NCBI GenBank assembly: GCA_030431255.1
Contig: JAUIJL010000001.1
Location: 1,116,001 to 1,180,000 of the forward strand
Length of the DNA: 64,000 bases
From: Thermoanaerobaculia bacterium
Lineage (GTDB): Bacteria; Acidobacteriota; Thermoanaerobaculia; Multivoradales; J023
Direction: 5' to 3'
Part shown: one piece after another, positions 3,767 through 19,117 of the stretch
Numbering within the stretch: the stretch's first letter is position 1
How the letters are laid out: each line of letters begins with the position of its first letter
Position numbers and translations under genes: made by a program
The notes under the pieces: generated by a model
Seen by the model: the letters and a program-made list of their open reading frames with translations, nothing else
Told to the model about the DNA's origin: nothing
The model's database searches: none

Positions 3767-3796
3767 GTTCAACTTGGTGAGGGAGGTGATCTGAGT

Positions 3797-3976
3797 GTGA
3801 GAATCGAAGATCCTTCGAGTCTCGCTCTCCAGCGCGACAGGAAGTCACCATTTGCAGGCCCAATAACGGCAAATGGATGCATTGAAATTGAGCTAGAACA
3901 GTTATCGCAAGAGGTTGAGGATGGCGCCCCGATCCGCCCCGACAGCCTATCGCGTGCTCAACAACTACAACGTTAG
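3797..3976 (+). CDS. small protein, 59 aa, unknown function
   Basis: This short frame starts with GTG and ends with TAG two bases before the next possible ATG (3979). It is preceded by GGAGGTGATC (3782-3791), an almost complete complement of the 16S rRNA 3' end and the strongest ribosome binding site in the island. It lies 30 bp after the Mo-reductase stop, so it probably belongs to the same transcript and may couple translation to the kinase gene. The peptide begins VRIEDPSSLALQRDRK and is hydrophilic and charged, with one Cys and no signal or membrane segment. I do not recognise a family. The alternative is that the strong site serves a leader or is a relic, because the codon bias is not decisive. 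Confidence 0.5.
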   Translation: MRIEDPSSLALQRDRKSPFAGPITANGCIEIELEQLSQEVEDGAPIRPDSLSRAQQLQR

Positions 3977-3987
3977 GGATGGCGTTC

Positions 3988-5727
3988 ATGAAGAAGTGGC
4001 AAGTTCTCCTGGTGGACGACGAGCAGGATGTTCACAGCATCACCGGCTTAATCTTGAAGAAAAAACGCTGGCGCAGGATCCCGTTCGAGCTGACGAGTGC
4101 CTACAGCCAGGCAGAGGCAATGGAGATCCTACAGAACCAGCGGGACTTCCACGTGGCCTTGGTCGATGTGGTGATGGAAAAGGACTCTTCGGGTCTCGAG
4201 CTTTGCGAATACATTCGTAAGCACTGCCCCAGCTCCATGCGCATCGTGCTCCGCACTGGACAACCCGGTCTCGCCCCCGAGGAGAACATCCTCAACGAAT
4301 ACGACATCGATTATTACTTGGCCAAGTCCGATGCGACTCCTGCCAAGCTTTACTCGGTGATCAGAGCATGTCTTCGCAGCTCGCAAGACATCTCGACCCT
4401 TTTGGCGTACGGCCAACAGCTACAAAGCTTTACCAAGACCCTCCAAGACGTCTCCAACGTCTCGGATCTTTTGGTCTTCATGCGCGAGGCGCTCAACTTC
4501 CTTGAGGCCAAGCACTCGACCCTGACCGTCTTCAACTACGACGTGTCCAACTTCCTGGAGTCATTCATCGCCGATGACGTGACGATGGAAACCGGTGAGC
4601 ACCTCGACTTCTTGAGGATCGGCAAGGCGATCGTCGAAGCGCATGAGAGAGACTTGGAGCTTCTGGAAGCCCACCCCGCCGCCGAGCTCGGATTGTCGGA
4701 TTCGTTCTTCGTGATTCCCTTCGAAGCGCAGGAAGAGCGCCAAGGTGAGAATGCGATGGCCGATGAGGACGCCGTCAAAGGTGGCTTGGCCTTCCGCATG
4801 GAGCCTGAGCTTCTGACAGAGAAAACGAAGGCCGATTTCTTGGCCGATGCGGTCCTCTTCATGGACAACTGGCGCATCGCTTATGCAACCGTCCGCCTTC
4901 GTGAGCGCCTGTCCCAAGAGCAATTGCTCCGCGACCAGATGTACTACGAGAGGATGGAGAGCATCGCCACCATGGTGACCGGTGTGGCTCACGAGCTGAA
5001 CACTCCCCTCGGTGTCGCGAAGACCGCCAGCAATATGGTGACGGAAATCGCCCGGAATCTCCTCGACGCTCCTCCTGAGGACGAAGAGGAATCCCAAGAG
5101 CTCGCGGACGATCTCGAGGACAGCTGTCAGCTCCTGGAGCGCAATCTGGATCGCGCCCAGACCTTGATCAAGAGCTTCAAGCAGCTTTCGTCGTCGCAGC
5201 TTTCCGACGAGAAGATTCAAATCGAGCTTGGAGAGCTGGTCAGCGATTGCCTGGAAACCATGCGTCCGGATCTAAAGAAGCATGGGATCACACCTGAGGT
5301 CCACCGCGAAGAGGATACGGATCTGACCTGGAACGGCTATCCGGGACACCTCAGCCAGGTGGTCATCAACCTGGTCCAGAACACGATTCGCTACGCCTAT
5401 CCGGAAGATAAGCGCGACGGATCTATCGATATCTTCTTGAAACGGCCGGATCCCGAAAGATTCGTCATCGAATACGTCGATTACGGAAAAGGTGTGGATC
5501 CCGAGATCCTACCGCGCCTATTCGATGCTTTCGTAACTTCGGGCAGAAGCCAAGGTGGCACCGGTCTCGGCATGGCGATTTCTCGAAACATCGTCGTCGA
5601 GATTCTCGGCGGCTCGATTACGTGTGACAGCTCTCCCGGAAAAGGTGCCAAATTCACCATCAACTTGCCTTCCGAGGTCAATGTCGACGCGAACGATATC
5701 CGTCGAATGGCCTTGAAGAAGATCTGA
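3988..5727 (+). CDS. REC-histidine kinase (receiver domain at N-terminus)
   Basis: A 579-residue cytoplasmic two-component protein with the receiver first. REC covers about 5-125 (acidic pair in LLVDDEQD, phospho-acceptor Asp60 in LVDVVM, Lys in YLAKSD). A GAF-like or helical middle (about 140-310) leads to HisKA with a normal H-box (His335 in TGVAHELNTPL) and an HATPase with N, G1 and G2 boxes (VINLVQNTIRYA, GTGLGMAISRN). The ATG at 3988 is preferred over 3979 because AGGGA lies about 8 bases upstream, although 3979 would couple to the small ORF. There is no membrane segment, so the input is likely received through REC or the middle domain. Co-transcription with nitrate reductase and truncated haemoglobin suggests control of nitrogen-oxide metabolism, but no DNA-binding partner is encoded beside it. 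Confidence 0.85.
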   Translation: MKKWQVLLVDDEQDVHSITGLILKKKRWRRIPFELTSAYSQAEAMEILQNQRDFHVALVDVVMEKDSSGLELCEYIRKHCPSSMRIVLRTGQPGLAPEENILNEYDIDYYLAKSDATPAKLYSVIRACLRSSQDISTLLAYGQQLQSFTKTLQDVSNVSDLLVFMREALNFLEAKHSTLTVFNYDVSNFLESFIADDVTMETGEHLDFLRIGKAIVEAHERDLELLEAHPAAELGLSDSFFVIPFEAQEERQGENAMADEDAVKGGLAFRMEPELLTEKTKADFLADAVLFMDNWRIAYATVRLRERLSQEQLLRDQMYYERMESIATMVTGVAHELNTPLGVAKTASNMVTEIARNLLDAPPEDEEESQELADDLEDSCQLLERNLDRAQTLIKSFKQLSSSQLSDEKIQIELGELVSDCLETMRPDLKKHGITPEVHREEDTDLTWNGYPGHLSQVVINLVQNTIRYAYPEDKRDGSIDIFLKRPDPERFVIEYVDYGKGVDPEILPRLFDAFVTSGRSQGGTGLGMAISRNIVVEILGGSITCDSSPGKGAKFTINLPSEVNVDANDIRRMALKKI

Positions 5728-5809
5728 TTCGGCAAGACTATGATTGAGCAGAAGAGCAAGACGAGGACCAACCTTCGGGCAAGCCGGCGTCACGCAGGAG
5801 GCGGCAAAA

Positions 5810-6169
5810 ATGAGTGACTCTCTCTTCGATAAGTACGGTGGCTTCTCCACCATCGGGGACGTTGTTCACAGCTTTTACGAAAAAATCATGGACACCGAGT
5901 CCCTAGAACACTATTTCTGGGACGTTGACATGAGCCGCCTGATGGCGCATCAGACCGACTTTCTGGCTATGGTGCTGGGGGGGCCTTCCAGCTATTCAGG
6001 CCGTTCCCTCAAGGAAGCACATCGGCATCTCAGGATCACCGAAGTGGACTTCCTGACGGTTGCAGAGCTCCTTGAGGAGGCCCTCGAGGAAGCCGGAATG
6101 GAAGATGAGGACGTTGAAATGGTGCTGGGAATCGTCGCTTCGACTAAGGGCGATATTGTTCAGGCCTGA
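5810..6169 (+). CDS. glbN: group 1 truncated haemoglobin (TrHbN-like)
   Basis: At 119 residues this matches the usual size of a 2-on-2 globin. Recognisable features are FYEKIM with a Tyr at B10 (Tyr23), the MSRLMAHQTDFLAMVLGGP helix E stretch with Gln48, and SLKEAHRHLRIT, whose His71 is the expected proximal haem ligand. The ATG at 5810 follows GCAGGAGG at 8 bases. TrHbN proteins typically oxidise NO to nitrate or protect respiration from NO. Placement between two histidine kinases downstream of a nitrate reductase fits detoxification of NO made from nitrite. The gap to the upstream kinase is 82 bp. Assignment to the family is firm; the NO dioxygenase role is inference from family and context. 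Confidence 0.88.
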   Translation: MSDSLFDKYGGFSTIGDVVHSFYEKIMDTESLEHYFWDVDMSRLMAHQTDFLAMVLGGPSSYSGRSLKEAHRHLRITEVDFLTVAELLEEALEEAGMEDEDVEMVLGIVASTKGDIVQA

Positions 6170-6239
6170 GTCCAGGAATCAACAAAAGCACCGATTTGAT
6201 AAGGTCTTTGTGCGAAAGCACTAGACAGGGGGAACGACG

Positions 6240-7370
6240 ATGGGCCGTATTGTTGGCTTCTTTAACTTCGATTACTTAGACAAGGTGGGGGCTGCGCTCT
6301 TCAATATGGAAGGGCAGCTGCTCAAATTCAACAAGAGCTTCAAGAAGTGGACGGGCTGCAAGAAAAGCTCATCAGTGTTGGAGCTCTTCCCCGAAATGTC
6401 CGGTGACCGCTTCGAGAAGGGCATCACCAAACGGGGACGTTTCAGCTACAAGACGACGATTCAGAATAAGCGAGGCGATGAGATCGATCTCACCCTCGCC
6501 TTCCGGAAGATCACCCGCCGCGGCGAAGACTACATCTTCGCCCAAGTGGACGATCGGACCCGAGAACGGGAAAAGGACGCGATCCTTCAACGCGCAACCC
6601 AGTTGCTCGAGAAGCGAAATCGCGAGCTGGATCGCGTCAACCGCGATCTGACCGAAGCCTACGATCAGCTCTTGCTGACCGGAAAGCTGATGGCTGTCGG
6701 CGAAATGGCCGCTAGCATGATTCTTGAAATGCGCCATCCGGTGCAGATGATGATGGCCAATGCTCAGCTTCTCGACGACTTCATTCGTGATCCGGAAGCG
6801 ACCGAGATGCTGCAGGACATCATCCAGTACTGCACACAGGTCAGCAAGATTCTCGAAGGGCTTCACAGTTATGCGGAAAAGAAAGAGCGAGATCTCGATC
6901 CGCACTCGGTCAAGGCCTTGCTCGACGACGCCTTCAAGCTCTGCCGTCGGCCGATCGAGAGCCAGCGCATCCGCCTCACGACACCTCTCGTGGACGAGAA
7001 CCTCAAGATCGCGTGCCGCCCCACGGAAATCAGCCAGGTGTTCATCAACTTGCTGAACAACGCCGCGGAAGCCGTCGGCGGAACCGATGGAGCGTGGATT
7101 CGAGTCGAGGTGGAGCAGAAAGACTCCAACTTGGAAATTGCTGTGGTCGATAGCGGCGAAGGTCTGCCGGAGTCCTTGGCTCAGAAAATCATGGAGCCCT
7201 TCTTCACGACCAAGGATGCGGGTGCCGGCAGTGGCACCGGTCTCGGCCTAACCATCTCCAAGAAAATCATGACCAGCCACCGTGGCAAGCTGACCCTCGA
7301 CACGGACAGCCCGAACACGCGTTTTGTCATGACCTTGCCGTTGGTTGAGGACTCCGACTCCGCCGAGTAG
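6240..7370 (+). CDS. PAS histidine kinase-like protein lacking the H-box histidine
   Basis: A soluble protein of 376 residues: PAS-like fold at about 10-105, coiled coil at 108-146, dimerisation helix from 148, HATPase at about 240-370. The ATP-binding part looks intact (VFINLLNNAAEAV; DSGEGLP; GSGTGLGLTISKKIM). The H-box aligns as GEMAASMILEMRHPV against the usual GELAAGVAHEINNPL, putting Leu162 in place of the phosphorylated His while the following Glu163 and Pro167 are kept. A His at 166 is three residues away and facing differently. It may be a pseudokinase or a partner that phosphorylates the neighbouring REC-kinase. AGGGGGA precedes the ATG. It ends the operon: a strong terminator follows 30 bp later. 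Confidence 0.85.
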   Translation: MGRIVGFFNFDYLDKVGAALFNMEGQLLKFNKSFKKWTGCKKSSSVLELFPEMSGDRFEKGITKRGRFSYKTTIQNKRGDEIDLTLAFRKITRRGEDYIFAQVDDRTREREKDAILQRATQLLEKRNRELDRVNRDLTEAYDQLLLTGKLMAVGEMAASMILEMRHPVQMMMANAQLLDDFIRDPEATEMLQDIIQYCTQVSKILEGLHSYAEKKERDLDPHSVKALLDDAFKLCRRPIESQRIRLTTPLVDENLKIACRPTEISQVFINLLNNAAEAVGGTDGAWIRVEVEQKDSNLEIAVVDSGEGLPESLAQKIMEPFFTTKDAGAGSGTGLGLTISKKIMTSHRGKLTLDTDSPNTRFVMTLPLVEDSDSAE

Positions 7371-7759
7371 ACCTAGGGTGGCTGCCCATTCCTCAAAGAC
7401 TCCTGCCGATCCATGCTGGTATCGGCAGGAGTTTTTTGCCTCTTCCCACTACCCCCTTGCCTCCGCATCCCCACTGCGGCGCTTGACTTCATCCCACAGG
7501 CTTGCTTCTCTTGATGCCGAACCCACAAATCGGCAAGCGCCCCATAGGCCTTTTCTTAGACAGCCGCAATCCTCCCGGAATATCCCGTGCTCGTGCTCGG
7601 AGCCGGCTGATGTCTTCTATAGGTTGATGGGTGCTGAGCACCTGCTCAAGCACCTCCCCCATGTCATCCGTTTGCGTTGCCAACCGCTCTTGAACACCCT
7701 TCCCTACTCGCAGGTCGGTGGATGAGGAGTCGGACTCGGCAGCCGCTCAAGGAGAAGAA
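7371..7759. other. intergenic region upstream of narK
   Basis: 389 bp without a convincing gene. It holds the terminator at 7400-7437 and an imperfect inverted repeat at 7630-7654 (GGTGCTGAGC, ACCT, GCTCAAGCACC; one bulged base, no T tract) that could be an operator or leader hairpin. I see no clear FNR-type TTGAT-N4-ATCAA box and no clean sigma-70 pair. Confidence 0.5.
7400..7437 (+). terminator. rho-independent terminator of the nitrate reductase operon
   Basis: A perfect 11-bp stem (CTCCTGCCGAT at 7400-7410 with ATCGGCAGGAG at 7421-7431), a 10-base loop and six T residues. It lies 30 bp after the PAS kinase stop and separates it from narK. Confidence 0.9.
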
Positions 7760-9319
7760 ATGCAAGCCCGTGAGCTAGTCGATTTCAAACAAGAACGAAT
7801 CCGGACGCTCCACTACACCTGGGTGGCGTTTTTCATCACTTTCGTCACTTGGTTCAACCTGGCCCCCCTGGCCACCACCATGATGAAAGACCTCGACTGG
7901 CTCGATCAAGGTGGGCTCAAGATCCTCTTGATCTGCAACGTCGCTCTGACGATTCCCGCCCGCGTGATCATCGGCGCCTTGTTGGATAGATACGGTCCAA
8001 AGCTCGTCTTCTCGGGGTTGTTGATCACCATGTCCTTGCCGTGTTTCGCCTTCGCGCTGGGCAACGATCTGATCACTTTGGTGATTTCCCGGCTATTGCT
8101 GAGCACGATTGGGGCCGGTTTCGTCATTGGTGTCCGCATGGTCTCCGAATGGTTCCCACCCAAGGACATCGGTTTGGCGGAAGGTTTCTATGCGGGCTGG
8201 GGCAATTTCGGTTCCGCAGCGGCAGCGATGGTTCTGCCGACCATCGCACTGAAGGTTTTCGGCGATGAAAACGGCTGGCGCTACTCGATCGCCCTCACCG
8301 GTTTAATCTGTCTTCTCTACGGTGTCATCTACTACCTTAAAGTCAACGACACTCCCGAAGGCAAGCTCTACTTGGGCTCGAAGCGAACGGAGCCCATTGA
8401 GGTCAGCAGCTACTTCGACATGGTCCTCCTGATCCTGTGGACGATTCCACTCTATGGAGCGCTCGGCGTTCTGGCTTGGAAGCTGCACGGAGTCGAATTC
8501 CTGGGTGATGGTGTCTACTACTCTGTGCTGGCCGTCTTGTTGGCACTCTATATTCGAGACGTTGTCAGGATATTGAGGCACAATGTTCCGCTGTTGAAGA
8601 ACAACCAAATTCCAGAGGACGATTTCTACTCCTTCAACTCGGTCGCGGCCCTAAACACCACTTATTTCGCGAATTTTGGCGCCGAGCTGGCCGTTATTTC
8701 GATGCTTCCGGCATTCTTCGAAAATACCTTCGAGATTTCAGCTGCTCAGGCCGGATTGGTCGCCTCGAGCTTCGCCTTCGTAAATCTGGTGGCGCGCCCC
8801 TTTGGTGGCTATTTGTCGGATATCTTCCAAAGTCGAAGGACCATCATCCTGATCTTCATGTTCGGCATTGCCGTCGGTTTCTTCGGCATGAGCCAAATCA
8901 ACTCTTCGTGGCCGTTGATCGCTGCGCTCGCCATCACCATGTCTTGCTCGGTTTTCGTTCAGGGTGCCGAAGGGGCTACTTTCGCCATCATCCCGCTGAT
9001 CAAGAAGAGAATGACCGGCAAAATTGCCGGCATGGTCGGAGCTTATGGAAACGTCGGCGCGGTGGTCTATCTCACCGTCTTTACCATGGTCGATACTCAG
9101 AAGTTTTTTCTGATTCTCGCGACCGGCTCGGCCATCAGCTTCATCTACTGCTTGATATTCCTTAAGGAGCCGGAGGGAGCTTTCGAGGAGGAATTTACCC
9201 TCTCGAGCCGAGACCAAATCCTGCTCTCCGAGCAGGAGCGGGAAATGCTGTCGGATATGTGGCGGGATCAGGTTGACGACGAGCCGGAAGGCTCAGGGGA
9301 AGGCCCAGATTCCAAATAG
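7760..9319 (+). CDS. narK: NarK-type nitrate/nitrite transporter (MFS)
   Basis: A 519-residue major facilitator protein with about 12 hydrophobic segments. Both nitrate signature motifs of the NNP family are visible: GWGNFGSAAAAMVLP in the N-terminal half and GAYGNVGAVVYLTVF in the C-terminal half. Conserved pore arginines are plausible in RVIIGALLDRYGP and RPFGGYLSD. The ATG at 7760 follows AAGGAG at 5 bases; a GTG 42 bases upstream (7718) is open but has no such site. It moves nitrate in and/or nitrite out across the inner membrane, which matches the upstream reductase. A hydrophilic acidic tail of about 45 residues follows the last membrane segment. Uptake versus antiport cannot be told from sequence. 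Confidence 0.93.
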   Translation: MQARELVDFKQERIRTLHYTWVAFFITFVTWFNLAPLATTMMKDLDWLDQGGLKILLICNVALTIPARVIIGALLDRYGPKLVFSGLLITMSLPCFAFALGNDLITLVISRLLLSTIGAGFVIGVRMVSEWFPPKDIGLAEGFYAGWGNFGSAAAAMVLPTIALKVFGDENGWRYSIALTGLICLLYGVIYYLKVNDTPEGKLYLGSKRTEPIEVSSYFDMVLLILWTIPLYGALGVLAWKLHGVEFLGDGVYYSVLAVLLALYIRDVVRILRHNVPLLKNNQIPEDDFYSFNSVAALNTTYFANFGAELAVISMLPAFFENTFEISAAQAGLVASSFAFVNLVARPFGGYLSDIFQSRRTIILIFMFGIAVGFFGMSQINSSWPLIAALAITMSCSVFVQGAEGATFAIIPLIKKRMTGKIAGMVGAYGNVGAVVYLTVFTMVDTQKFFLILATGSAISFIYCLIFLKEPEGAFEEEFTLSSRDQILLSEQEREMLSDMWRDQVDDEPEGSGEGPDSK

Positions 9320-9378
9320 CAAGCTTGAGCCGCCCATCGAGTGAGCGCTGCTCTCGCTCAAGTAGGCACATATGCAAA

Positions 9379-9414
9379 AGGAGCCGACCCTCTAGCAGGT
9401 TGGCTCCTTCTTAC
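9379..9414. terminator. hairpin between convergent narK and H-NOX genes
   Basis: AAGGAGCCGACC (9379-9390) pairs with GGTTGGCTCCTT (9399-9410), one G-T pair, 8-base loop. The T run is short on the plus strand (CTT) and AAAA flanks the other side, so it could end transcription from both directions. Confidence 0.6.
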
Positions 9415-9470
9415 GAATAGACGGTGGAATCGCCCCTCAACAACAGGCTACGGCTACACGGACAAACGAA

Positions 9471-10115
9471 TCAAAGATTGTCTGCCCCGCTCGGGTCCGC
9501 TTCTGCCCAGATATCTTCTTCGTCCTCATGCTGCGGCGGGCTCGAGGTTGGTGCAGGGGCGACGTCCCCCTCTTTTTTCAGAGACACCCAAATCTTGCAG
9601 CTGCTGTCACCTCGGTGCATGCAAGTTTCTTCAACGATCTCGATCGGCTCGTTGTAATGGTTGGCAACCCCGAGCGCAATTCCTTGCGCGACCCGGCAAA
9701 GCTTCCGCTCTGAACGATAGTCGATCACGATTTCGCGATCGGTCAAGCGATTACATACCAGCTTAGGTGGGCTGGCTTTGCGATTTCTGGCCCGGACCAC
9801 CTGATGAATGGTCTCTTCCACGTTTTCAATAAAGTCGAGGGTCTTCCAAGAAGGATCAATCAACGGCTTATAGGCCGTAAATAGGTCCTTACCGACGAAG
9901 GTGCCGTATTCCTTCAGCACTTGATCGATCGACATGCCGGTCATATTCGAAACCCCGACCACGATTCGCATCATGTCCTCGTCGGGGTAATAGAGACCGT
10001 TCATATAGCTATCTTTCGAGCCCAAACCCACTTTTCCGAGGACCTCGATCCACGCCGACTCGCTCAGCTCCTGAATCACGAATTGCTTCAGCTCTGTGAA
10101 GAAAAAACCGAGCAT
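9471..10115 (-). CDS. H-NOX (HNOB) haem nitric-oxide sensor protein
   Basis: A 214-residue stand-alone H-NOX. The fold-defining residues are visible: proximal His104 in ETIHQVVR and the YxSxR haem-propionate motif Tyr133-Arg-Ser135-Glu-Arg137. By spacing, the position that is Tyr140 in O2-binding Thermoanaerobacter H-NOX is Val142 here, which predicts NO selectivity. A V4R-like CMHRGDSSCKIW stretch follows, then an acidic Pro/Glu-rich tail from about 185. Bacterial H-NOX proteins normally signal to a histidine kinase or diguanylate cyclase next door. Here the gene directly before it (16 bp) is a roadblock protein and the operon also has ParA, so the partner is unusual. No membrane segment. 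Confidence 0.9.
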   Translation of the reverse strand: MLGFFFTELKQFVIQELSESAWIEVLGKVGLGSKDSYMNGLYYPDEDMMRIVVGVSNMTGMSIDQVLKEYGTFVGKDLFTAYKPLIDPSWKTLDFIENVEETIHQVVRARNRKASPPKLVCNRLTDREIVIDYRSERKLCRVAQGIALGVANHYNEPIEIVEETCMHRGDSSCKIWVSLKKEGDVAPAPTSSPPQHEDEEDIWAEADPSGADNL

Positions 10116-10131
10116 CGCCTTCCCTTTCCGA

Positions 10132-10506
10132 TCAATCGCCCACGACGTTCAGAAGCACCGACTCGTACTTCTTCATGATCGCCCGGGCCAATCCGAGATT
10201 TCCTTTGCGGGTGATTGCCAGCACGTGGCAATACTGAGCGCCGAGCATGCGAATGAGAATGTTGAGGGTCGAGGTGGTAATCAGAATATCTTCCGTCGAA
10301 TTTGCGCCGAGCCCCAAAAGGTCCAAAGCCCTTTTATTGAGCTTGACCACCTCCGCATAACAAGCGGAGGCTACGGACGCGTCGAAGTCCAAATCTACGG
10401 TCGCTCCACCAATTGAGAGCCCACTTTCGACATTGACCAAATCGGTCGACACGAACTCGGGAACCTCGTCCCGAAATCTGTCCATTTCTTGCTGCAGTGA
10501 ATTCAT
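10132..10506 (-). CDS. roadblock/LC7-domain protein (first, H-NOX-adjacent)
   Basis: 124 residues forming essentially one roadblock/LC7 (MglB-like) domain: a short helical start, VNVESGLSIGGATVDLDF, a long central helix, then DILITTSTLNILIRMLG and the closing strand and helix HVLAITRKGNLGLARAI. Such domains dimerise and usually act as GAPs or scaffolds for small Ras-like GTPases. No mglA-type GTPase is found in this window; a ParA ATPase is in the operon instead. The gap to the downstream H-NOX is 16 bp, implying co-translation. Family assignment rests on overall pattern, without catalytic residues to check. Confidence 0.75.
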   Translation of the reverse strand: MNSLQQEMDRFRDEVPEFVSTDLVNVESGLSIGGATVDLDFDASVASACYAEVVKLNKRALDLLGLGANSTEDILITTSTLNILIRMLGAQYCHVLAITRKGNLGLARAIMKKYESVLLNVVGD

Positions 10507-10598
10507 CTCAGGTGGGCCTCAAGCCGTTAAGCATTCTTCGCGATAGGGGCGTCGGATCATGGGTTGCAGGATGCAGCACTGGCAACACTTCTCAGCTC

Positions 10599-11297
10599 CT
10601 AACCCACCGCCGCGAATACGCTGGAAAGCGAATCCTGGAAGCTTTGGGTCAGGTTGCGGTGCAGCGGAGACCCCACCGTGAAACCTAAGGCATGCGGACC
10701 GAGTCGGGTGTCTGCTTGTACCACATGGAGCACCCGCTCATCGTCCAAGTCGATCGCGATCGACCCCTCGCTTCTCGTCCCCAAGCTGTCCGGAATGCGA
10801 TCCTTTAGATTTAGAAAGTAGGCGGAGAGCGCCACGAGATTGGGATCAGAATCCCTTTCCATCAGCACCAAACCCTCTTCATCCACGATGAAAAGCCCTT
10901 TGCAAGCCGTACAAGTCTCAACCCATGCCATATAGGCTTCCAGCCTTCGGTCGAGTCGGTCGGACTCCAGCTTAAGAGGGGGATGCTTGGGGGCCTCGTG
11001 CTGCTGGGGGCCGGCCAAGGAGCCACCGTTTCCGTTCGGGGGTTTCCCGGGAACCGAATCCCGCTCGGCCTTCGCCGGCAAGGATGGAGCCGGCTGGGCT
11101 TCGGAAAGTCCTGAGGCAGACGTCATCGCGGGCGTTGCGGTAGCGGTATTGTTTGCGCGTGGCGCTGAGCCCAAACGCGTACCCGGAAGCCAGATCGGGC
11201 TTCGCCGACTGGACGCAGAGGTCGAAGGGTCGAAACCCGCTCGATTCAAGGCCGCTGAAAAGGCTGAGGGATCAATCCAGGAGAGGGATTGGCTCAT
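10599..11297 (-). CDS. roadblock-like protein with disordered N-terminal linker
   Basis: 232 residues in two parts. Residues 1-110 are Ser/Ala/Pro-rich and probably disordered. Residues 115-230 look like a second roadblock-type domain (CKGLFIVDEEGLVLMERD, NLKDRIPDSLGTRSEGSIAIDLDD, then strand-helix RLGPHALGFTVGSPL). The ATG lies 26 bases inside the end of parA and has GGAGGAG four bases upstream, a sign of tight coupling to ParA. The first 20 residues (MSQSLSWIDPSAFSAAL) form a short conserved-looking amphipathic segment that could be a docking peptide for ParA. The domain call is by pattern only and is weaker than for its neighbour. Confidence 0.65.
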   Translation of the reverse strand: MSQSLSWIDPSAFSAALNRAGFDPSTSASSRRSPIWLPGTRLGSAPRANNTATATPAMTSASGLSEAQPAPSLPAKAERDSVPGKPPNGNGGSLAGPQQHEAPKHPPLKLESDRLDRRLEAYMAWVETCTACKGLFIVDEEGLVLMERDSDPNLVALSAYFLNLKDRIPDSLGTRSEGSIAIDLDDERVLHVVQADTRLGPHALGFTVGSPLHRNLTQSFQDSLSSVFAAVG

Positions 11298-12105
11298 CCT
11301 GCTCCTCCATTCTTATCAAACCGATTCGGCGCTCTACCTCGTGGGCGATCAAGTCGAAGACCGACGCTACCCGGGGAGGATGTCGACTCAACAAGCCGAC
11401 GGGCACGCCGTGAAGGCTAGCCCTCAAGAACGCACTATCCCTCGGTACATTGGCGTTGAGAATCAAATCTTGGGGAATGAGACTCCAGCTTTCTTCAGCA
11501 ACCGATACCGAGGTGGTGTCTTCCGCTGCCAACATGGTCAGCAGGAAGCCGGCAATCTCCACTTTACACCCTTGCTGGCGAAGGTGCCCTAGAACGTCGA
11601 GGATCTGGGTGACGGACCGGAGCGCCAGGGGCTCCGATTGGAGAGGCAGCAGCACGTAGTCGCAGGACCGCAGGACCGCCAGAGTCGGGCCGTACGTTCC
11701 CCCTGCGGTGTCGAGGATGATGACTTCGAATTGCTCGGCTGCGTTGGCTAAGAACGCGTTCAAAGCGTCTTGCTCGAAGATGTCGCCACCCGATCCGAGC
11801 TCGAGGGGCGTACGGCTGCCGAAAGTAAGAATGTTGAGCTCGGGCAACCTCGTTTTCAGCACCGCTTGTTCGAGGGCAACTTGCCCGTCTAAGCAGTCCA
11901 CCAGCCCCGCATCACCAGATTTGGCTTGGCGCTGCAAGGAAAAGCCTATCGCCCCTTGGGGGTCCGCGTCGACGATCAGGGTCTTCCACCCCCGCTTGGC
12001 CAGAGCGTACCCCAGGTTTAGAGAGGTTGTGGTTTTACCGACCCCTCCCTTTTGGCTGGCAACTGCGAGAATAACTCCCCGGTCTGGCTTCTCATCCGTC
12101 AACAT
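11272..12105 (-). CDS. ParA/Soj-family ATPase
   Basis: 277 residues from ATG 12105 (a TTG at 12120 is also open). Deviant Walker A KGGVGKTTT with the signature first Lys, switch I region DADPQGAIGF, Walker B IILDTAGG and a C-terminal membrane/DNA-surface helix. It lacks a ParB partner and an N-terminal HTH, so it is not a standard chromosome partition gene; orphan ParA proteins position protein cargo such as chemoreceptor clusters or cell-division regulators. Here the stop overlaps the start of a roadblock protein, and the next genes are a second roadblock and H-NOX, suggesting that ParA distributes or switches this complex. A palindromic site sits 45 bp upstream. Confidence 0.9.
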   Translation of the reverse strand: MLTDEKPDRGVILAVASQKGGVGKTTTSLNLGYALAKRGWKTLIVDADPQGAIGFSLQRQAKSGDAGLVDCLDGQVALEQAVLKTRLPELNILTFGSRTPLELGSGGDIFEQDALNAFLANAAEQFEVIILDTAGGTYGPTLAVLRSCDYVLLPLQSEPLALRSVTQILDVLGHLRQQGCKVEIAGFLLTMLAAEDTTSVSVAEESWSLIPQDLILNANVPRDSAFLRASLHGVPVGLLSRHPPRVASVFDLIAHEVERRIGLIRMEEQDEPIPLLD

Positions 12106-12133
12106 GTCGGGCTCAATCAATGCGTTATTTCAA

Positions 12134-12166
12134 GATTGCAAGACGTCTGAGCACTATAGTGCAATC
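12134..12166. promoter_or_regulatory. nested palindrome upstream of parA, putative operator
   Basis: A perfect 12-bp palindrome GCACTATAGTGC (12151-12162) is nested in a wider inverted repeat GATTGCA (12134-12140) / TGCAATC (12160-12166). It lies 29-61 bp before the parA ATG, on the minus-strand side, where a repressor site or a parS-like site would be expected. Only one copy was noticed. Confidence 0.5.
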
Positions 12167-12251: not shown

Positions 12252-13076
12252 TCAGCCAACCTGAGCTCTGTCCTGTTTCGGAGGCGACAACAACAGGGTC
12301 GCGTTGTTCAGGTTGGCGCCTTGGAAAATGGCTCCTTCGAGGCGGGCATCCTCACAATGTGCGCCGGAAAGGTTGGCTTGGGTGAAGTCGGCAGACCGCA
12401 AATCGGCTTCTTCCAGGTAAGCAGCTCGGAGATTTGCACCGCTCAAATTCGTCCCGACCAAGGACGCACGTCTGAGATTGGATAGGGTAAGCCTCGCGCC
12501 GCTAAGGTCAGCTCCCGAGAGATCGGCGCCCTGAAGCTCGGCGGTCCTCAGGTTGGCCTTTTGGAGATTAGCGTCGGTCAAATTCGCACCTTGGAGGTCG
12601 CCCCCCCAAAGATCCGCGCCTGACAAATCCGCACCGCGGATGTGAGCGGACCGTAAGCAAGCTCCCCGCAACCGGGCCTTGCCGAATAGGGTCAATCCCA
12701 GATAGGCGGAAGACAGCTCCGCCGACTCCAGATTGGCAGCCGATAGGTCTGAGCCTTCTAGAAAGGCTCCCGTCAGCCGGGCGCGGCGCATCACCGCTCC
12801 CGCGAGTATTGCCCCTCCCAGGTAGCTCGAGCACAAGCTGGCCTCGGATAGGTCGGCCTCTGTAAAGTCGACGTCCTGCAGATCGCATCCGCTCAGCTCC
12901 GCCCCGGTGAGCTTGCAACCTTGAAAATTGAATCCCGAAAGATCCCGACCGGCGAAGTCGACCGAGGATAGATCCGGAGTATGTTCCGGCGTTTGCCGCC
13001 GCCACTCATTCCAAGCCTGGGCGCCCTTTTCTAGAACGTTCCATTCTGTAGATTCAGGTTTGAGACTGTGTGTCAT
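12252..13076 (-). CDS. pentapeptide-repeat protein A
   Basis: 274 residues, of which about 35-265 are consecutive A(D/N)LxX pentapeptides forming a right-handed beta helix. The N-terminal cap reads GAQAWNEWRRQ followed by PDLSSVDF and RDLSGFNF, nearly the same as in the pentapeptide protein at 15091. No signal peptide or membrane segment. It is on the same strand as parA with a 146-bp gap that contains the palindrome, so it may be a separate transcript or the head of the operon. Qnr-like gyrase protection is not suggested: no loops typical of Qnr and the cap differs. The role is unknown; a scaffold for the adjacent ParA/roadblock/H-NOX proteins is possible. Confidence 0.85.
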   Translation of the reverse strand: MTHSLKPESTEWNVLEKGAQAWNEWRRQTPEHTPDLSSVDFAGRDLSGFNFQGCKLTGAELSGCDLQDVDFTEADLSEASLCSSYLGGAILAGAVMRRARLTGAFLEGSDLSAANLESAELSSAYLGLTLFGKARLRGACLRSAHIRGADLSGADLWGGDLQGANLTDANLQKANLRTAELQGADLSGADLSGARLTLSNLRRASLVGTNLSGANLRAAYLEEADLRSADFTQANLSGAHCEDARLEGAIFQGANLNNATLLLSPPKQDRAQVG

Positions 13077-13541
13077 ATATCTTGATGAAGAGCGTAAGAA
13101 TTCGTATTTGGGTTCCGGCCATTCATTTCCGGCCTCGAAAATCGTAGAAGATGCGCCTTACGATTCACATTTCGACCGAGCGAAACGCCTGCGCAATCCT
13201 CTTCGCCTGCCGGGGTCGAGCTTACCTGATCCGGGGCCCGCTTGGTCCAATAGATTCGCCGCAAATGCTGATAGACTCAGTCTTCAGAGGATTGGCTACT
13301 GAATCCGCCTCCAAGGGCTTCCCGCGGGGAAACACGATCGATATCGGTCGTTGTGCTAATCTAAGATGAAGTTTGAGCATCCAGGGGAGAGAGTAAGTGG
13401 ACAGAGCTTCGAGCGGAGCATTTTCAGCGGAGATTTACGGTTGAGCTCGAGCTTCGTTTTGAGCAGGGGATCCATGTTCTCTTCGGTCGGGCTGTCCAAC
13501 GAACCTGGTTGCGGTTATCTCCCTTGCTGGAGACCGACACC
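13077..13541. other. divergent intergenic region
   Basis: 465 bp between the divergent pentapeptide A and REC-PATAN genes. It must hold both promoters, but I see no clear consensus. A 59-codon frame (13366-13545) overlaps the start of the regulator as ATGA, yet has no ribosome binding site, and I do not call it. Confidence 0.5.
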
Positions 13542-15017
13542 ATGAGCACGATCCTGATTGCCGACGACAATCCCGATATTCTGACTTTGGTCGGAGAGAC
13601 GCTTCGAGCAGCCGGCCATCAAGTGGTGCAAACCGTAAATCCTTCCCGGGTCACCTCCCTGCTCGACGCGAGCACGGTTGATGCCGCGGTGCTGGATGTG
13701 GTGATGCCGATCAGTGGCTTGGACCTGCTGAAAGAGATTCGCGCGCAGCCTCGCTGGAAAAACCTGCCCGTGTTGTTGCTCTCTGGTTTAGGTGATACCC
13801 AGGATCGAGTCCGCGGAATCCGAGAAGGGGCAGACGACTATCTGGCCAAGCCCTTTGAGCCCGCCGAGCTGGTCGCCAGGGTCGAAAGGCTGATTGCCCG
13901 CCGAGACAGTGAGCCGGGCCTTTCGGGGAACTTAGAAGACTTCGCGCCTGGAGACGTGACTCAGAATCTCGCTCAGGGCGGAAAGACCGGTTGCCTACGC
14001 ATTTCCAGCGACAATCGTCTGGTTGAGGCCCATTTCGTGCGTGGCAAGATCGTCAGCGCCGAGGCTGGTGCGCTCTCCGGTGACGAAGCTTTGCTTTCAC
14101 TGCTTACGCTCGAGCAAGGGCATTTCGCCTTCGAAGCATCGTCCGAAGAAGAAGCCGAGAGCCACGCCGGCAGAGGACCTTTGGAGCTGAACAGCATTCT
14201 GTTGGAGGCCGCTTGGCTGGAGGACGAGCTCAAGCGTCGTCGACCGACCTTGGCCCAAGATAACCCGACCCTCCGGGTCGTCGGTCCAAAACCGTCTCAG
14301 TTGGATGAGGATTTCGAGAGCCTGCCGATCGACGAGATTTACGGCCACATCATCAGTCATCCGAATACCGGTGTCTCAGAGCTTATCGACCTACAAACGA
14401 CCTCCCCTTCTCGCGTTCTTTTGGCCGTGGCCATTCTCCTGGAGCAAGGCTCGCTCGAGGGACGTGAGCGAGATCCGTCTGCAGTGACACCGAGGAGGGT
14501 CCACAAGGATCCCCTCGGAGAGCTGTTGGCGGTTTGCCGGGACCGGGGTATGTCGACCACCATCTACCTTCTGATTCTCTTCCAACAGGAGGCTTGGAAG
14601 GAGCTTCTCGGCCTGATCAAATCGATCCCTGACGAGCTGCTGGCGAGCGAGCGCCACCAGCTGCTGGATGAGCTGATCATGCGGGGTAGCGGCACGGTAC
14701 GCCTTGCGCACGAGGAAGGGGTGGTGGTGCTGAATCTCAAGCCGTTGCGAGGAGATCGGCTTCAAGGAGCGGCGCTCTTGTCGTTGGCGGCAGGAGTGGT
14801 GCTGTGGCTCGCCGGAGACGTTCCGGATTCCTTGGATCAATACATCGAGAAGCTCGAGGAAGCCCAAGGCGGATCCCAGGGTTTGCTCTTGACCTCGAAT
14901 CCGGACTGCGGTGAACGGCTTCGAGCTGCCATCGAAGGTCAGAAATACTGGAAGGTATCTACGGACCCCGTCAGCAACATTTCCGTTCTGGTTGACTTAC
15001 TCATCGACTCCCCGTGA
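13542..15017 (+). CDS. response regulator with PATAN (DUF4388) domain
   Basis: 491 residues from the ATG at 13542, which has GGAGA 7 bases upstream (an ATG-less extension to 13509 is open). REC at 1-120 (LIADDNPD, phospho-Asp in AVLDVVMP, Lys in YLAKPF). A PATAN/DUF4388 domain follows at about 130-215 (QGGKTGCLRI, HFVRGKIVSAEAG), then a winged-helix-like segment (SELIDLQTTSPSRVLLAV). The last 160 residues are alpha/beta and end in strands such as VVLWLAGD and GLLLTSN; they recall the back half of a small GTPase but have no P-loop. PATAN regulators often work with roadblock/GTPase polarity or motility modules, and the ParA/roadblock genes lie divergently. No output enzyme is present. Confidence 0.85.
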   Translation: MSTILIADDNPDILTLVGETLRAAGHQVVQTVNPSRVTSLLDASTVDAAVLDVVMPISGLDLLKEIRAQPRWKNLPVLLLSGLGDTQDRVRGIREGADDYLAKPFEPAELVARVERLIARRDSEPGLSGNLEDFAPGDVTQNLAQGGKTGCLRISSDNRLVEAHFVRGKIVSAEAGALSGDEALLSLLTLEQGHFAFEASSEEEAESHAGRGPLELNSILLEAAWLEDELKRRRPTLAQDNPTLRVVGPKPSQLDEDFESLPIDEIYGHIISHPNTGVSELIDLQTTSPSRVLLAVAILLEQGSLEGRERDPSAVTPRRVHKDPLGELLAVCRDRGMSTTIYLLILFQQEAWKELLGLIKSIPDELLASERHQLLDELIMRGSGTVRLAHEEGVVVLNLKPLRGDRLQGAALLSLAAGVVLWLAGDVPDSLDQYIEKLEEAQGGSQGLLLTSNPDCGERLRAAIEGQKYWKVSTDPVSNISVLVDLLIDSP

Positions 15018-15090
15018 AAGAGCACTATTTACCCATTGCCAGGGTTCGATACGATCAACCCGAGCTGCACAACTATCCGGAAAGATATCT

Positions 15091-15645
15091 ATGGACAATC
15101 AAGAGTCGCGTCGGATTCTGATCGAGCAAGGTGTCGAGCCTTGGAATACGTGGCGAGTCGGTGAGCCCACGGTCGCCCCAGATTTGTCGGAGGTCGACCT
15201 GAAGGAGCGCGATCTTACCGGTGTAAATTTCTGGAGCGCCAACCTCAGCAAGGCCACTCTCGACAATGCGACCCTCGATGCCGCGACCTTGCTTAGGGCG
15301 ACCCTGCGAGGCGCCAGTCTCAAAGGGGCGAGCCTAAGGCAAGCAGACCTCCTCGGAGCCGATTTGACCGGAGCCGACTTGGAAGGTGCCGACCTGGAGG
15401 GAGCGGTGCTGATGGGCGCGACCCTACAGGATGCGAATCTGAAAAACGCCAATTTGGCGGGCGCCAATTTACGGGGCGCGAGCCTGCGGGGGGTTCAGGC
15501 CCAAGGGGCGAATCTAGAAAACGTGCGTTTACCTTTGGTGCGGCTCGGCGAAGCCAATTTCGAGCAGGCCCGAATTCGTGGTCTCGAAATCCACCCCGCA
15601 CAAGCACAAGCGCTGGCTAAGGCTTTGGGGGTTACCGTACTGTAA
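15091..15645 (+). CDS. pentapeptide-repeat protein B
   Basis: 184 residues: cap GVEPWNTWRVGE-PTVAPDLSEVDL, then about 20 pentapeptides (ADLTGADLEGADLEGAVL and similar) and a 25-residue non-repeat tail (HPAQAQALAKALGV). The cap matches pentapeptide protein A position by position (W-N-x-W-R, PDLSxVD, RDLxGxNF), so the two are diverged paralogues placed on both sides of the regulator. It lies 73 bp after the REC-PATAN gene and is probably co-transcribed. GGAAAG is a modest ribosome binding site. Function unknown. Confidence 0.85.
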   Translation: MDNQESRRILIEQGVEPWNTWRVGEPTVAPDLSEVDLKERDLTGVNFWSANLSKATLDNATLDAATLLRATLRGASLKGASLRQADLLGADLTGADLEGADLEGAVLMGATLQDANLKNANLAGANLRGASLRGVQAQGANLENVRLPLVRLGEANFEQARIRGLEIHPAQAQALAKALGVTVL

Positions 15646-16390: not shown

Positions 16391-19117
16391 TTAGGTGTCC
16401 CCAAGCATCATATTCACCATCTGCGTATAGAAATCTGACCAGGCTTGACGGGCCTCAAAAGTCAGCTCGACGCCAGTCACTCGTTCGAGAGTCGTCAAGA
16501 GGGCCTGACCGACGATGCCGTAATGGCTTCGTTCGACTCCATAGTGAACGTGTCGCTCCCCCATCTCCCGAAGCTGCGGACCCATTTGCTCCAGCCGATC
16601 GAGACCGTTGACGATCATGCTCATGAAAGCGACAAACTTCTGCCCCTGTGCCTCCATATCCGTGTCCGCAAACATCTCCCGGGTGGCCGGCTCAAACTCA
16701 AAAATGGTGTCGTAGAAGACTTTGGCGGCCTCATCACCGTAGGACGACAGCCTTTCGAAGGAATTCTGAACCAGAAATACGGGATCCGGGTTTTCCAGGT
16801 CGTAGATCTCGTAGAGCGAAGCGCTGCGGCCACCGAAGGGCTCTTCCGGGAAGATATCGCCGATATCCACCTCGTCCTCGATGATATTGATCAGCTCTTC
16901 GGTGGCCAGAATCGTGGTTCCGACCGCGGCATTGTGGGCGCCGACGGCATCTGCCAAACCTGCGGCTTCACCGATTCCAAGCAAGTGACGCTTGGAAGGA
17001 TTGCCGAATTGTCCAACCACCATGCGCCCGAAGTGAAGGCCGATACCGAGTTGGAGCTCGGTTGTGAAGTAAGTGGAGGCGTAGCGGTTGAAACCGCGCA
17101 TTCTTTCCGCGATGCGCAGCGCGGCACGGATCGCCGCCAAGCATTTCTCGTCGGCGGAGCCGCCGTCTAAGCCGAAGAATGCCCTGAATCCCGTGCCGGT
17201 GTAATTCTGAATCCGACCTTTGTAGATGCCCACCAGCATCCCCATCTGGGTGAGGAAGCGATGCAGAAGATGAATTTGATCGTACGGCGGAGCCTTTGTC
17301 GCGAAATTGTCGAAGTCCAAGATCTCACACGACAAAATCGCCAGTGTGGCTTCCTGGGCCGGCAGGGTCTGGGCGTGCTCATCGAGCAGCAGCCCGATGT
17401 CTTGGGAATCCCTGACCAGCCGCTCCACCGCCACATTGCCGACGATTCGAGTCTGACAAGCCAAGCGAATTTCATCTTCCCAGCCCAGCCGCTCAGCGAG
17501 CTTCGCTTCCCGAGGTTTGCGCGGCAGGACGTTTTCCAGGCCGTTCAGCACCCGGATGCGGCAGGTAGAGCACCTGGCTCGGCCTCCACACTCGTTGTAG
17601 ATCTCGATGTCGTTGTCGACCGCTAGATCGAGGATCGACTTCCTGCGGTTCTTGAGCTCAAGGGGTTTTTCCACCCCACCCTCGAGGCGAAACATCACGG
17701 AGAGGGCCGGCCCTTCACCGGTCTCCGTCATCGTCGCCCGGCTGATGGTGATCGACGGCTCGGTCTCCGAGGTCACCGATGGATCCCGAAGAATCGGTCG
17801 GCTCACCGCGTCCGGCGGCAATGGCGGAGGAGTAGCTACAGGCGGCGCGGGCTCGAATGCCCTGAAGTCATTAGGTGAACCGGGCTGAGCTCTCGGCGGT
17901 TGGGCCGAAACCGGTGGCACGGGCGGAATCTTCGGAATTTGTTGGTGCTCGGCCACCGGGTTTTGTTGGTGATCGATCATCGGGCCGGGCTCGATCATGG
18001 TGATCGACGGTGAGCCGCTCTCAGTGGTCAGCCCCCCCGAGGTCATGGAGTCCCAATTCTCAACTGGGCTATCGGCGCTTTCCGTGACCCAACCGGGTGA
18101 AACAGCTGCCCTGGCGTCCCGGGGATCGACGGGTTTGAGATCTGCGCCCGAATCCGACGATTCATCTCTGAATCTCGATGACGAGCCGAATCCACTTTCG
18201 TTCTGGCCCCTTAAGAAACCACCTGTTGCCATTCCGGATTGGGACGCTCGATCCATATCGACCCCGGAGACGGACCCCTCCTCCATCGCGTCCAGCGCCG
18301 ACATCACTTCGAGCGCGCTGTGGGGTCGATCCTCGGGATCTTTTTCCATCAGATGATCGACGATATCTGAGAACTGCGGCAAAACCTCCGGGCGAAGGTC
18401 CTTGACCGGTCGCTGCTGGAGCGTACAAATCCGGGTGAGCGTTTGGACTTTGTTGTCGCTGTGGAAGGGAGAAACGCCGGTCAAAGATTCGTAGAGCAGC
18501 GTGCCCAATGAGAAGAGATCCGATCGATGATCGACGGACTCACCTACCGCCTGCTCGGGAGACATGGCCGAAACGGTTCCGATCAACCGCCCTTCAATGG
18601 TCAGCGCGGGCTCGTTGTCGTTGGTGCCGACGTGTTTGGCGAGACCGAAATCAAGAATTTTGACCTGATCCCCGGCGGTCAACATGATGTTGTCGGGCTT
18701 CAGGTCCCGGTGCACGATACCGGCGGCGTGGGCGATCGCCAATCCGCTCAAGATCTGACGGGCGATTTTCTGGGTTCGCCACGGGGGCAGCGGGCCGCGC
18801 ATCAAAAGTCGCTTGAGGGACTGTCCGTCGACCAGCTCCATGACCAGCCAATCACCCTCCGAGGTTTCGACCCAATCGTAAACCTGGACGATCGTCGGAT
18901 GATTCAGCCGAGCTACGGATCGGGCTTCACGCCTGAATCTCTCCCTCGCGCTGGTGCTCGAGGTGTCCGCTCGTATGTGTTTGAGGGCCACTGGACGGTC
19001 CAACCGTTGGTCGAAACCGCGGTAGACCTTACCCATGCCGCCGGCGCCGATCTCCTCACCAACACCGTAGGGTCCGATTTTTTCTGGAGGCGGGTTGTTC
19101 TTTGTCAGCAAAGCCAC
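16391..19117 (-). CDS. Ser/Thr kinase - [2Fe-2S] - degenerate cyclase - globin fusion
   Basis: 908 residues with four modules and no membrane segment. Kinase 14-280 appears active: GAGGMGKVY, Lys46, HRDLKPDN with Asp138, DFG Asp156. A Pro/Ser-rich linker runs to about 470. The ferredoxin domain (472-570) has Cys510, 516, 519 and 554 (C-x5-C-x2-C, adrenodoxin-like). A class III cyclase fold (590-770) has lost both metal aspartates: Glu598 at the first position and Thr642 in GTGFRAFFG at the second; the usual Asn and Arg are Gly and Asp in GEAAGLADAV. The C-terminal globin (780-908) is Vgb/flavohaemoglobin-like, with Tyr802 at B10 (VFYDTIF) and His856 as proximal ligand (ERHVHYG). It should bind O2 or NO and control the kinase. 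It is followed by flavodoxin. Confidence 0.9.
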   Translation of the reverse strand: MALLTKNNPPPEKIGPYGVGEEIGAGGMGKVYRGFDQRLDRPVALKHIRADTSSTSARERFRREARSVARLNHPTIVQVYDWVETSEGDWLVMELVDGQSLKRLLMRGPLPPWRTQKIARQILSGLAIAHAAGIVHRDLKPDNIMLTAGDQVKILDFGLAKHVGTNDNEPALTIEGRLIGTVSAMSPEQAVGESVDHRSDLFSLGTLLYESLTGVSPFHSDNKVQTLTRICTLQQRPVKDLRPEVLPQFSDIVDHLMEKDPEDRPHSALEVMSALDAMEEGSVSGVDMDRASQSGMATGGFLRGQNESGFGSSSRFRDESSDSGADLKPVDPRDARAAVSPGWVTESADSPVENWDSMTSGGLTTESGSPSITMIEPGPMIDHQQNPVAEHQQIPKIPPVPPVSAQPPRAQPGSPNDFRAFEPAPPVATPPPLPPDAVSRPILRDPSVTSETEPSITISRATMTETGEGPALSVMFRLEGGVEKPLELKNRRKSILDLAVDNDIEIYNECGGRARCSTCRIRVLNGLENVLPRKPREAKLAERLGWEDEIRLACQTRIVGNVAVERLVRDSQDIGLLLDEHAQTLPAQEATLAILSCEILDFDNFATKAPPYDQIHLLHRFLTQMGMLVGIYKGRIQNYTGTGFRAFFGLDGGSADEKCLAAIRAALRIAERMRGFNRYASTYFTTELQLGIGLHFGRMVVGQFGNPSKRHLLGIGEAAGLADAVGAHNAAVGTTILATEELINIIEDEVDIGDIFPEEPFGGRSASLYEIYDLENPDPVFLVQNSFERLSSYGDEAAKVFYDTIFEFEPATREMFADTDMEAQGQKFVAFMSMIVNGLDRLEQMGPQLREMGERHVHYGVERSHYGIVGQALLTTLERVTGVELTFEARQAWSDFYTQMVNMMLGDT

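Follow-up and report, generated by a model that had tools for sequence, protein, structure and literature searches.

Partners of ParA/MinD-type ATPases have been described to act via a positively charged, disordered N-terminus, the rest of the protein binding the cargo (PMC10241942). Small GTPases are frequent ligands of roadblock/longin proteins, which have been described as dimer-forming platforms (PMC10933270), and the superfamily has been predicted to regulate nucleoside triphosphatases (NTPases; PMC4316618). In facultative anaerobes, the H-NOX haem sensors characterised so far work with histidine kinases or with enzymes of the diguanylate cyclase/phosphodiesterase kind (PMC8738867), as also named in a preliminary description of the present locus; chemoreceptor domains, to which H-NOX is likewise found joined (PMC9814294), have to be added. 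In the 64,000-nucleotide stretch of DNA analysed here (hereafter the window; all coordinates refer to it unless another contig is named), four minus-strand genes encode, in this order, a ParA-type P-loop ATPase (parA), the two putative roadblock proteins RB1 and RB2 and an H-NOX haem sensor (hnoX). We propose, with a probability of about one half, that these genes encode a gas-responsive roadblock-ParA module in which a complex of sensor and roadblock protein would control the ParA-type ATPase through RB1. The operon can be regarded as a variant of ParA-partner systems and of roadblock-NTPase modules, and its gene content suggests a link between gas sensing and cell organisation.

The locus resembles several described systems in part. 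Like MglA-MglB, it includes a protein that models with the MglB fold (RB2), and PATAN proteins near MglB homologues are on record (PMC4316618); it differs in that the window has no MglA-like open reading frame (ORF), that the NTPase beside the roadblock proteins is of the ParA type and that a haem sensor is added. As in ParABS, McdAB, ParC and PpfA, a ParA-type ATPase adjoins a partner whose N-terminal peptide is conserved and followed by a linker, whereas the folded part of this partner is roadblock- or GAF-like, a haem sensor is present in the operon and no cargo was recognised. A stand-alone H-NOX, predicted to be of the NO (nitric oxide) type, would serve as sensor subunit as in the H-NOX/kinase and H-NOX/cyclase pathways, but its neighbour in the window is a roadblock protein. 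In Treponema, the di-iron oxygen sensor ODP acts in chemotaxis and is genetically linked with a homologue of chemoreceptors (PMC7666581); ODP-family proteins in sister operons of the ParA clade described below are instead coupled to roadblock, REC/PATAN and ParA proteins, gas binding being only putative. Finally, TRAPPC3, V4R and H-NOX have been reported to be structurally similar (PMC10933270), and the sub-threshold V4R match of the window H-NOX (28.2 versus 31 bits) recalls the TRAPP core of Bet3/TRAPPC3 and longin subunits, although the window is without a GTPase and the likeness is no more than an analogy. Among the hits listed by searches of open-licence papers, no account of a combination of H-NOX, roadblock and ParA was found, two listed papers with both ParA-like and roadblock-domain terms (PMC11255338 and PMC12288465) lying outside this statement; this agrees with the earlier designation of the system as a candidate undescribed one. 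The available portion of PMC10933270, which treats both H-NOX and roadblock, describes no such operon.

The four-gene unit, its sensor and its roadblock-like proteins

The parA gene extends over positions 11272-12105 (minus strand), assuming the ATG start, which agrees better with the start at locus L015 than a possible TTG at 12120 (11272-12120); the end at 12166 given previously is out of frame with ParA. The rb1 gene (10599-11297, minus) overlaps parA by 26 nt (11272-11297), with a GGAGG ahead of its start, and is followed by rb2 (10132-10506, minus) and hnoX (9471-10115, minus). The ORF coordinates thus agree with a four-gene minus-strand unit with a 26-nt parA/rb1 overlap and a 16-nt gap between rb2 and hnoX. 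The term tightly packed, used in the preliminary description, fits these two junctions and not that between rb1 and rb2, which is looser due to its gap of 92 nt.

The H-NOX protein matches the Pfam profile HNOB with 113.2 bits (cut-off 25.5; E 1.5e-32) and is the sole HNOB match at E<=0.001 in the 10.2-Mb genome to which the window belongs (G000, taken to be that of an acidobacterium; contig C15). Its residues 1-182 align with solved H-NOX chains (4u9b, 3.5e-21; 2kii, 6.1e-21). Residues H104, Y133, S135 and R137 are invariant across 13 aligned H-NOX proteins, the motif reading YRSER in the window protein, and position R+5, which we take to be that of the distal Tyr of the O2-binding H-NOX type, is occupied by Val142; the alignment therefore bears out His104, the YxSxR motif and the distal Val noted earlier. 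The neighbours of hnoX are rb2 and a converging NarK gene. No histidine kinase or GGDEF/EAL gene adjoins it, the nearest histidine kinase gene (6240-7370) lying 2.1 kb off on the other strand.

Neither RB1 nor RB2 is matched by the roadblock models of Pfam and NCBIfam at E<=1. The predicted structure of RB2 (predicted local distance difference test, pLDDT, 88.4; predicted template modelling score, pTM, 0.81) closely resembles MglB of M. xanthus (template modelling score, TM, 0.87; E 1.8e-9), and RB2 is, judged by this model, an MglB-like roadblock protein. The model of RB1 is weaker (mean pLDDT 60), with ten-residue blocks at 61-89 from residue 101 on, except for 151-160 and the last block. 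In Foldseek, Rag/MglB-type chains rank first (E 1.3e-4 to 1e-3), and in VIA-align roadblock/Rag and GAF domains are level (Z 10-11.5). We therefore call RB1 roadblock-like with the reserve that its C-terminal domain may equally be GAF-like; of the two roadblock/LC7 proteins postulated earlier, RB2 is upheld, and for RB1 the two folds tie. At its N-terminus RB1 carries the peptide SLSWIDP, of which LSWIDP is invariant in five aligned sequences, followed by a low-confidence, putatively disordered linker. This layout of N-terminal peptide and linker is that of the described ParA/MinD partners, and RB1 is likely to be a ParA partner.

All comparisons were carried out within the Acidobacteriota; genomes and loci are designated by G and L numbers. 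The order parA-rb1-rb2-hnoX occurs in the window, in G002 of the same family and in G012 and G020 of another family of the order (loci L015, L010 and L011). Conservation of a ParA-roadblock-H-NOX neighbourhood in relatives had been set beforehand as a refutation test, and the order was found in these three other genomes. As it is kept in other genera and in two families, it represents more than a chance neighbourhood, and this explanation was rejected. Compared to the window, the three other operons share 71-81% identity in RB2, the most conserved member, 48-66% in ParA, 39-60% in H-NOX and 35-49% in RB1. RB2 of G012 possesses an N-terminal DUF4388/PATAN domain (4.7e-11), and this stretch is 86% identical in G020.

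The pairing of RB2 and H-NOX extends further. H-NOX matches are present in 7/98 relatives (own genome counted) and in 24 of the 396 sampled genomes of the phylum, and RB2 matches in 30/396. Close RB2 proteins (<1e-20, a cut placed post hoc in the gap between 9e-23 and 7e-14) occur in nine genomes, and H-NOX adjoins in eight of them (G000, G012, G101, G141, G431, G312, G116 and G288) and not in G211. RB2 thus stands beside H-NOX in 8 of the 24 H-NOX genomes, the other 16 being without an RB2 match at E<=0.001. In the six RB2-H-NOX genomes outside the window order, an open frame of the composition REC-PATAN-RB2 has RB2 at its C-terminal end and is adjoined by a histidine kinase gene and by another regulator gene; for L083 and L088 the sequences themselves were read. 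Tandem copies of the RB2 and/or H-NOX genes are found at L083, L084 and L085, which belong to small genomes of about 1.9 Mb. In a roadblock tree the H-NOX-linked proteins are weakly compatible with a single origin (60/83), and the MglA-linked roadblocks form one group (100/99). Distant RB2-like genes adjoin MglA-like GTPase genes at L090, L091 and L092 in the window's own genome and in G012 and G010; in G440 such a gene lies about 2 kb from an MglA-like GTPase gene.

A ParA clade with roadblock-type neighbours and varying sensor-like genes

The window ParA is matched by AAA_31 (1.6e-27), by ParA profiles and by solved ParA-family chains, and its Walker A motif is of the KGGxGKT type. In a search with a ParA profile, scoring was confined to the top few candidates of each genome, and all counts are therefore lower bounds. 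The search yielded at least 17 matches of 212-411 bits in at least 16/396 genomes, further matches being at 194 bits and below; the profile had been built from eight of the 17. Together with L015 and L010 these make up 19 clade loci, whose neighbourhood (4.5 kb on each side, E<1e-4) was scanned with profiles for RB1, roadblock, REC/PATAN, ODP, H-NOX and MglA. RB1-type genes were found at 16/19 loci, roadblock genes at 15/19, REC/PATAN-type genes at 14/19, ODP at 6/19, H-NOX at 4/19 and MglA at none (0/19). The RB1-type frames of L156, L161 and L162 (1e-4, 1.4e-4 and 4e-3) were scored as misses. Since the PATAN profile includes the receiver domain and also matches other receiver proteins, two of them in the window, its count is to be read as REC/PATAN-type. 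A separate RB1 profile built from five sequences found seven places in 6/396 genomes; two of these places match weakly (1e-4 and 7e-4), and the operon at L120, described below, is one of the seven.

As many of the clade loci had trained the neighbour profiles, loci without such a role provide the fairer test. For comparison, 20 of the 21 next-ranked ParA matches down to G304 were examined (G318 was left out; a few matches of similar score further down, e.g. in G339, lie outside this set). Four of these loci, L163, L164, L168 and L182, fall on the clade side and have RB1-type, roadblock, ODP or REC/PATAN-type neighbours; among the 16 remaining generic loci one (L175) has a lone REC/PATAN match 2.7 kb off. 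An RB1-type or roadblock neighbour occurs at 7/9 non-training clade-side loci compared to 0/16 generic loci (Fisher p 7e-5). Similarly, 23 clade-side rows are split from the 16 generic ones in a ParA tree with a branch support of 95/95, and the window ParA falls into a seven-row group (100/99) together with those of the three other H-NOX operons, L120, L099 and L121. The preliminary description had called this ParA an orphan, a term which does not hold, as the protein belongs to a clade in which parA and an RB1-type gene overlap.

Such an overlap is widespread. An in-frame RB1 start (ATG, GTG or TTG) lies within the end of parA at all 18 loci examined, L162 being left out of this check. The overlap amounts to 26 nt in the window, L015, L010, L011, L099 and L121, which represent at least two classes, to 14 nt in L161 and mostly to 29-35 nt elsewhere; L099, L104, L120, L122, L156 and L158 have more than one possible start, and many RB1 starts are preceded by a GGAG-like stretch. 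The retention of the overlap at 18/18 loci favours coupled translation and speaks for ParA and RB1 being translationally coupled.

H-NOX is one among several proteins accompanying the ParA clade. Among the recognised sensor-like genes the commonest form is that with ODP, seen in operons from five families (L122, L154, L158, L160, L103 and L104), which contain roadblock, ODP, REC/PATAN, ParA and RB1-type genes in varying order. Membership in Pfam ODP was confirmed for L122 (5.3e-69) and L103 (4.7e-56). Beyond the H-NOX and ODP loci no sensor was recognised, save a 421-residue protein without assigned nature at L120. This locus (G000:C42, 9166-13893) is a second parA-rb1-roadblock operon of the window's own genome and comprises ParA (9166-9993), RB1 (9953-10675), a roadblock-like protein (10672-11250), then the Cys-rich 421-residue protein, and also a protein with weak resemblance to REC/PATAN/TPR. 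As the 421-residue protein matches V4R at E 0.098 and a 159-residue protein of L099 has no V4R match, calling them V4R-like would be a guess; profile comparison found no kinship of either with the H-NOX profile. Thus, the parts, their order and its conservation, the overlap and the apparent exchange of the sensor beside the ParA clade can all be taken from the sequences themselves.

A possible route from gas to ParA and its alternatives

From these features we infer a scheme in which H-NOX would bind NO at its haem, change shape and dock on a dimer of RB2, which in turn would pair with the folded domain of RB1. The N-terminal peptide of RB1, held on a flexible linker, would contact ParA as do the partner N-termini in known ParA/MinD systems. 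This contact would set ATP hydrolysis and, hence, the place or persistence of ParA binding, so that the state of the sensor would govern where anything carried on the RB1/RB2/PATAN side is located or which state it adopts. No shared cargo gene was seen beside the H-NOX operons; the genome has six CheW matches and ten T2SSE-family ATPases, and CheW proteins or T2SSE-family ATPases could act downstream of the module. Most of what is known of roadblock proteins concerns Ras-like GTPases, and the characterised outputs of H-NOX are kinases, cyclic di-GMP enzymes and chemoreceptors. A conserved roadblock-ParA unit beside H-NOX or ODP would therefore be a further output of NO sensing and a new kind of ParA partner, and a gas could thereby act on the state of a protein that organises the cell interior. 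The input to ParA ATPases regarded as orphans would become testable with four small, apparently soluble proteins.

Several observations weigh against this scheme. The four-gene operon is rare, having been seen in four genomes, and G001, from the same genus as the window, contains a divergent H-NOX only, without an RB2 match and with ParA matches of the generic level. In the window, the N-terminal peptide of RB1 is no more than mildly basic, with a net charge of +1 over 39 residues; the values for L010 and L011 are +5 and +7, and that for L099 is acidic (-5). As the first residues of the peptide are encoded in the parA overlap, part of its conservation may be forced. Since roadblock/Rag and GAF domains tie in the comparison of its model, RB1 may have a GAF-like instead of a roadblock fold. 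ODP profile matches occur in 12/14 ordinary control genomes, above the cut-off in 9/14, so that ODP membership alone is no proof of a gas sensor. In addition, a promoter scan was at chance level (one found, 1.2 expected).

Some of the same features would also fit a ParA that acts as a nucleotide switch rather than as a positioner, with RB1 and RB2 activating its hydrolysis as MglB does on MglA. This is a possible though doubtful explanation, and equally tentative is its further detail that ParA-ATP would bind an effector, for example a transcription factor or else a pilus or polarity part. It would account for the fit of the RB2 model to MglB, the distant RB2 paralogues adjoining MglA-like GTPases in the same genome, the frequency of response-regulator partners and the observation that no shared cargo gene was seen beside the H-NOX operons. 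Against this, sequences in the clade have stayed of the ParA type and their partner has a conserved peptide at its N-terminus, as is described for positioning systems. A GTPase overlooked in the window was rejected: no MglA-like ORF was found there (best E 0.41), in line with the earlier statement that no Ras-like GTPase is encoded here, and no MglA-like match at E<1e-4 lies within 4.5 kb in 39 scanned ParA loci, although a partner could be encoded elsewhere in the genome.

It is less probable that ParA-RB1 and RB2-H-NOX are separate units, adjacent by history, and that H-NOX acts via RB2 on a kinase or GTPase elsewhere. Each pair does occur without the other. The six genomes with a REC-PATAN-RB2 frame beside H-NOX, from other families, have ParA matches of the generic level only, and a histidine kinase gene and a sigma-54-type regulator gene adjoin, which weighs against the gas-responsive ParA module as well; ParA-RB1 is found without RB2-H-NOX in L121 and L120. 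On the other hand, the joined order is kept in two families, the ODP operons are made up of parts of the same kinds, and at most of the clade loci ParA has a roadblock neighbour, as counted above. Quite unlikely, finally, though combinable with the other explanations, is a redox or zinc switch at Cys140/165/173 in place of an NO switch: these residues align with Cys of solved H-NOX chains, and the H-NOX of V. cholerae performs heme-free redox sensing at a zinc site (PMC8738867), but the orthologues of L010 and L011 lack C140 and C165 and keep the axial His.

It might further be speculated, with considerable reserve, that the module belongs to a general class of ParA systems with sensory input. 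In these, exchangeable gas-binding metalloproteins would be coupled to ParA by a roadblock scaffold, and the pair of H-NOX and roadblock would correspond, in bacteria, to the TRAPP core, with ParA as its target in place of a Ras GTPase. The metalloproteins would then be haem H-NOX, di-iron ODP and perhaps a Cys-rich protein of unknown fold, and dissolved NO or O2 would directly reset ParA-driven organisation.

Genes surrounding the operon

A REC-PATAN (DUF4388) response regulator of 502 residues (13509-15017, plus strand; DUF4388 7.8e-16) is a possible member of the system. It shares about 32% identity over 436-471 residues with proteins near the ODP/ParA operons L103 and L104; matches to DUF4388 exceed the Pfam cut-off for the window protein and at L121 and L011, fall just short of it at L122 and were not detected for the L120 protein. 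The window protein is divergent, and its gene is flanked by genes for two pentapeptide-repeat proteins (12252-13076, minus; 14911-15645, plus), the former of which lies between it and the operon. One other full-length relative was found in the genome; REC-PATAN relatives amount to at least 42 matches, 150 of 176 candidates having been scored.

A terminator scan was at chance level. The G+C content at third codon positions (GC3) of the operon is 0.65-0.69, as against 0.64 in the pentapeptide gene and 0.68-0.71 in four further genes of the window, and a foreign base composition of the operon was rejected on the basis of this similarity.

A plus-strand cluster at 38-9319 converges on hnoX and encodes a flavin reductase/ferredoxin fusion protein resembling nitrate reductase, a response-regulator/kinase protein, a truncated globin, a histidine kinase and a NarK-type transporter. 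In G002, a NarK gene (70% identity; L015, 16453-18021) is also located about 6.5 kb from hnoX. Both genomes further encode a fusion of Ser/Thr kinase, ferredoxin, cyclase-like and globin parts (window, 16391-19117, minus; L015, 4636-6999, minus), and in G002 this gene is located upstream of the ParA operon, at a distance of about 300 nt, and is divergent from it.

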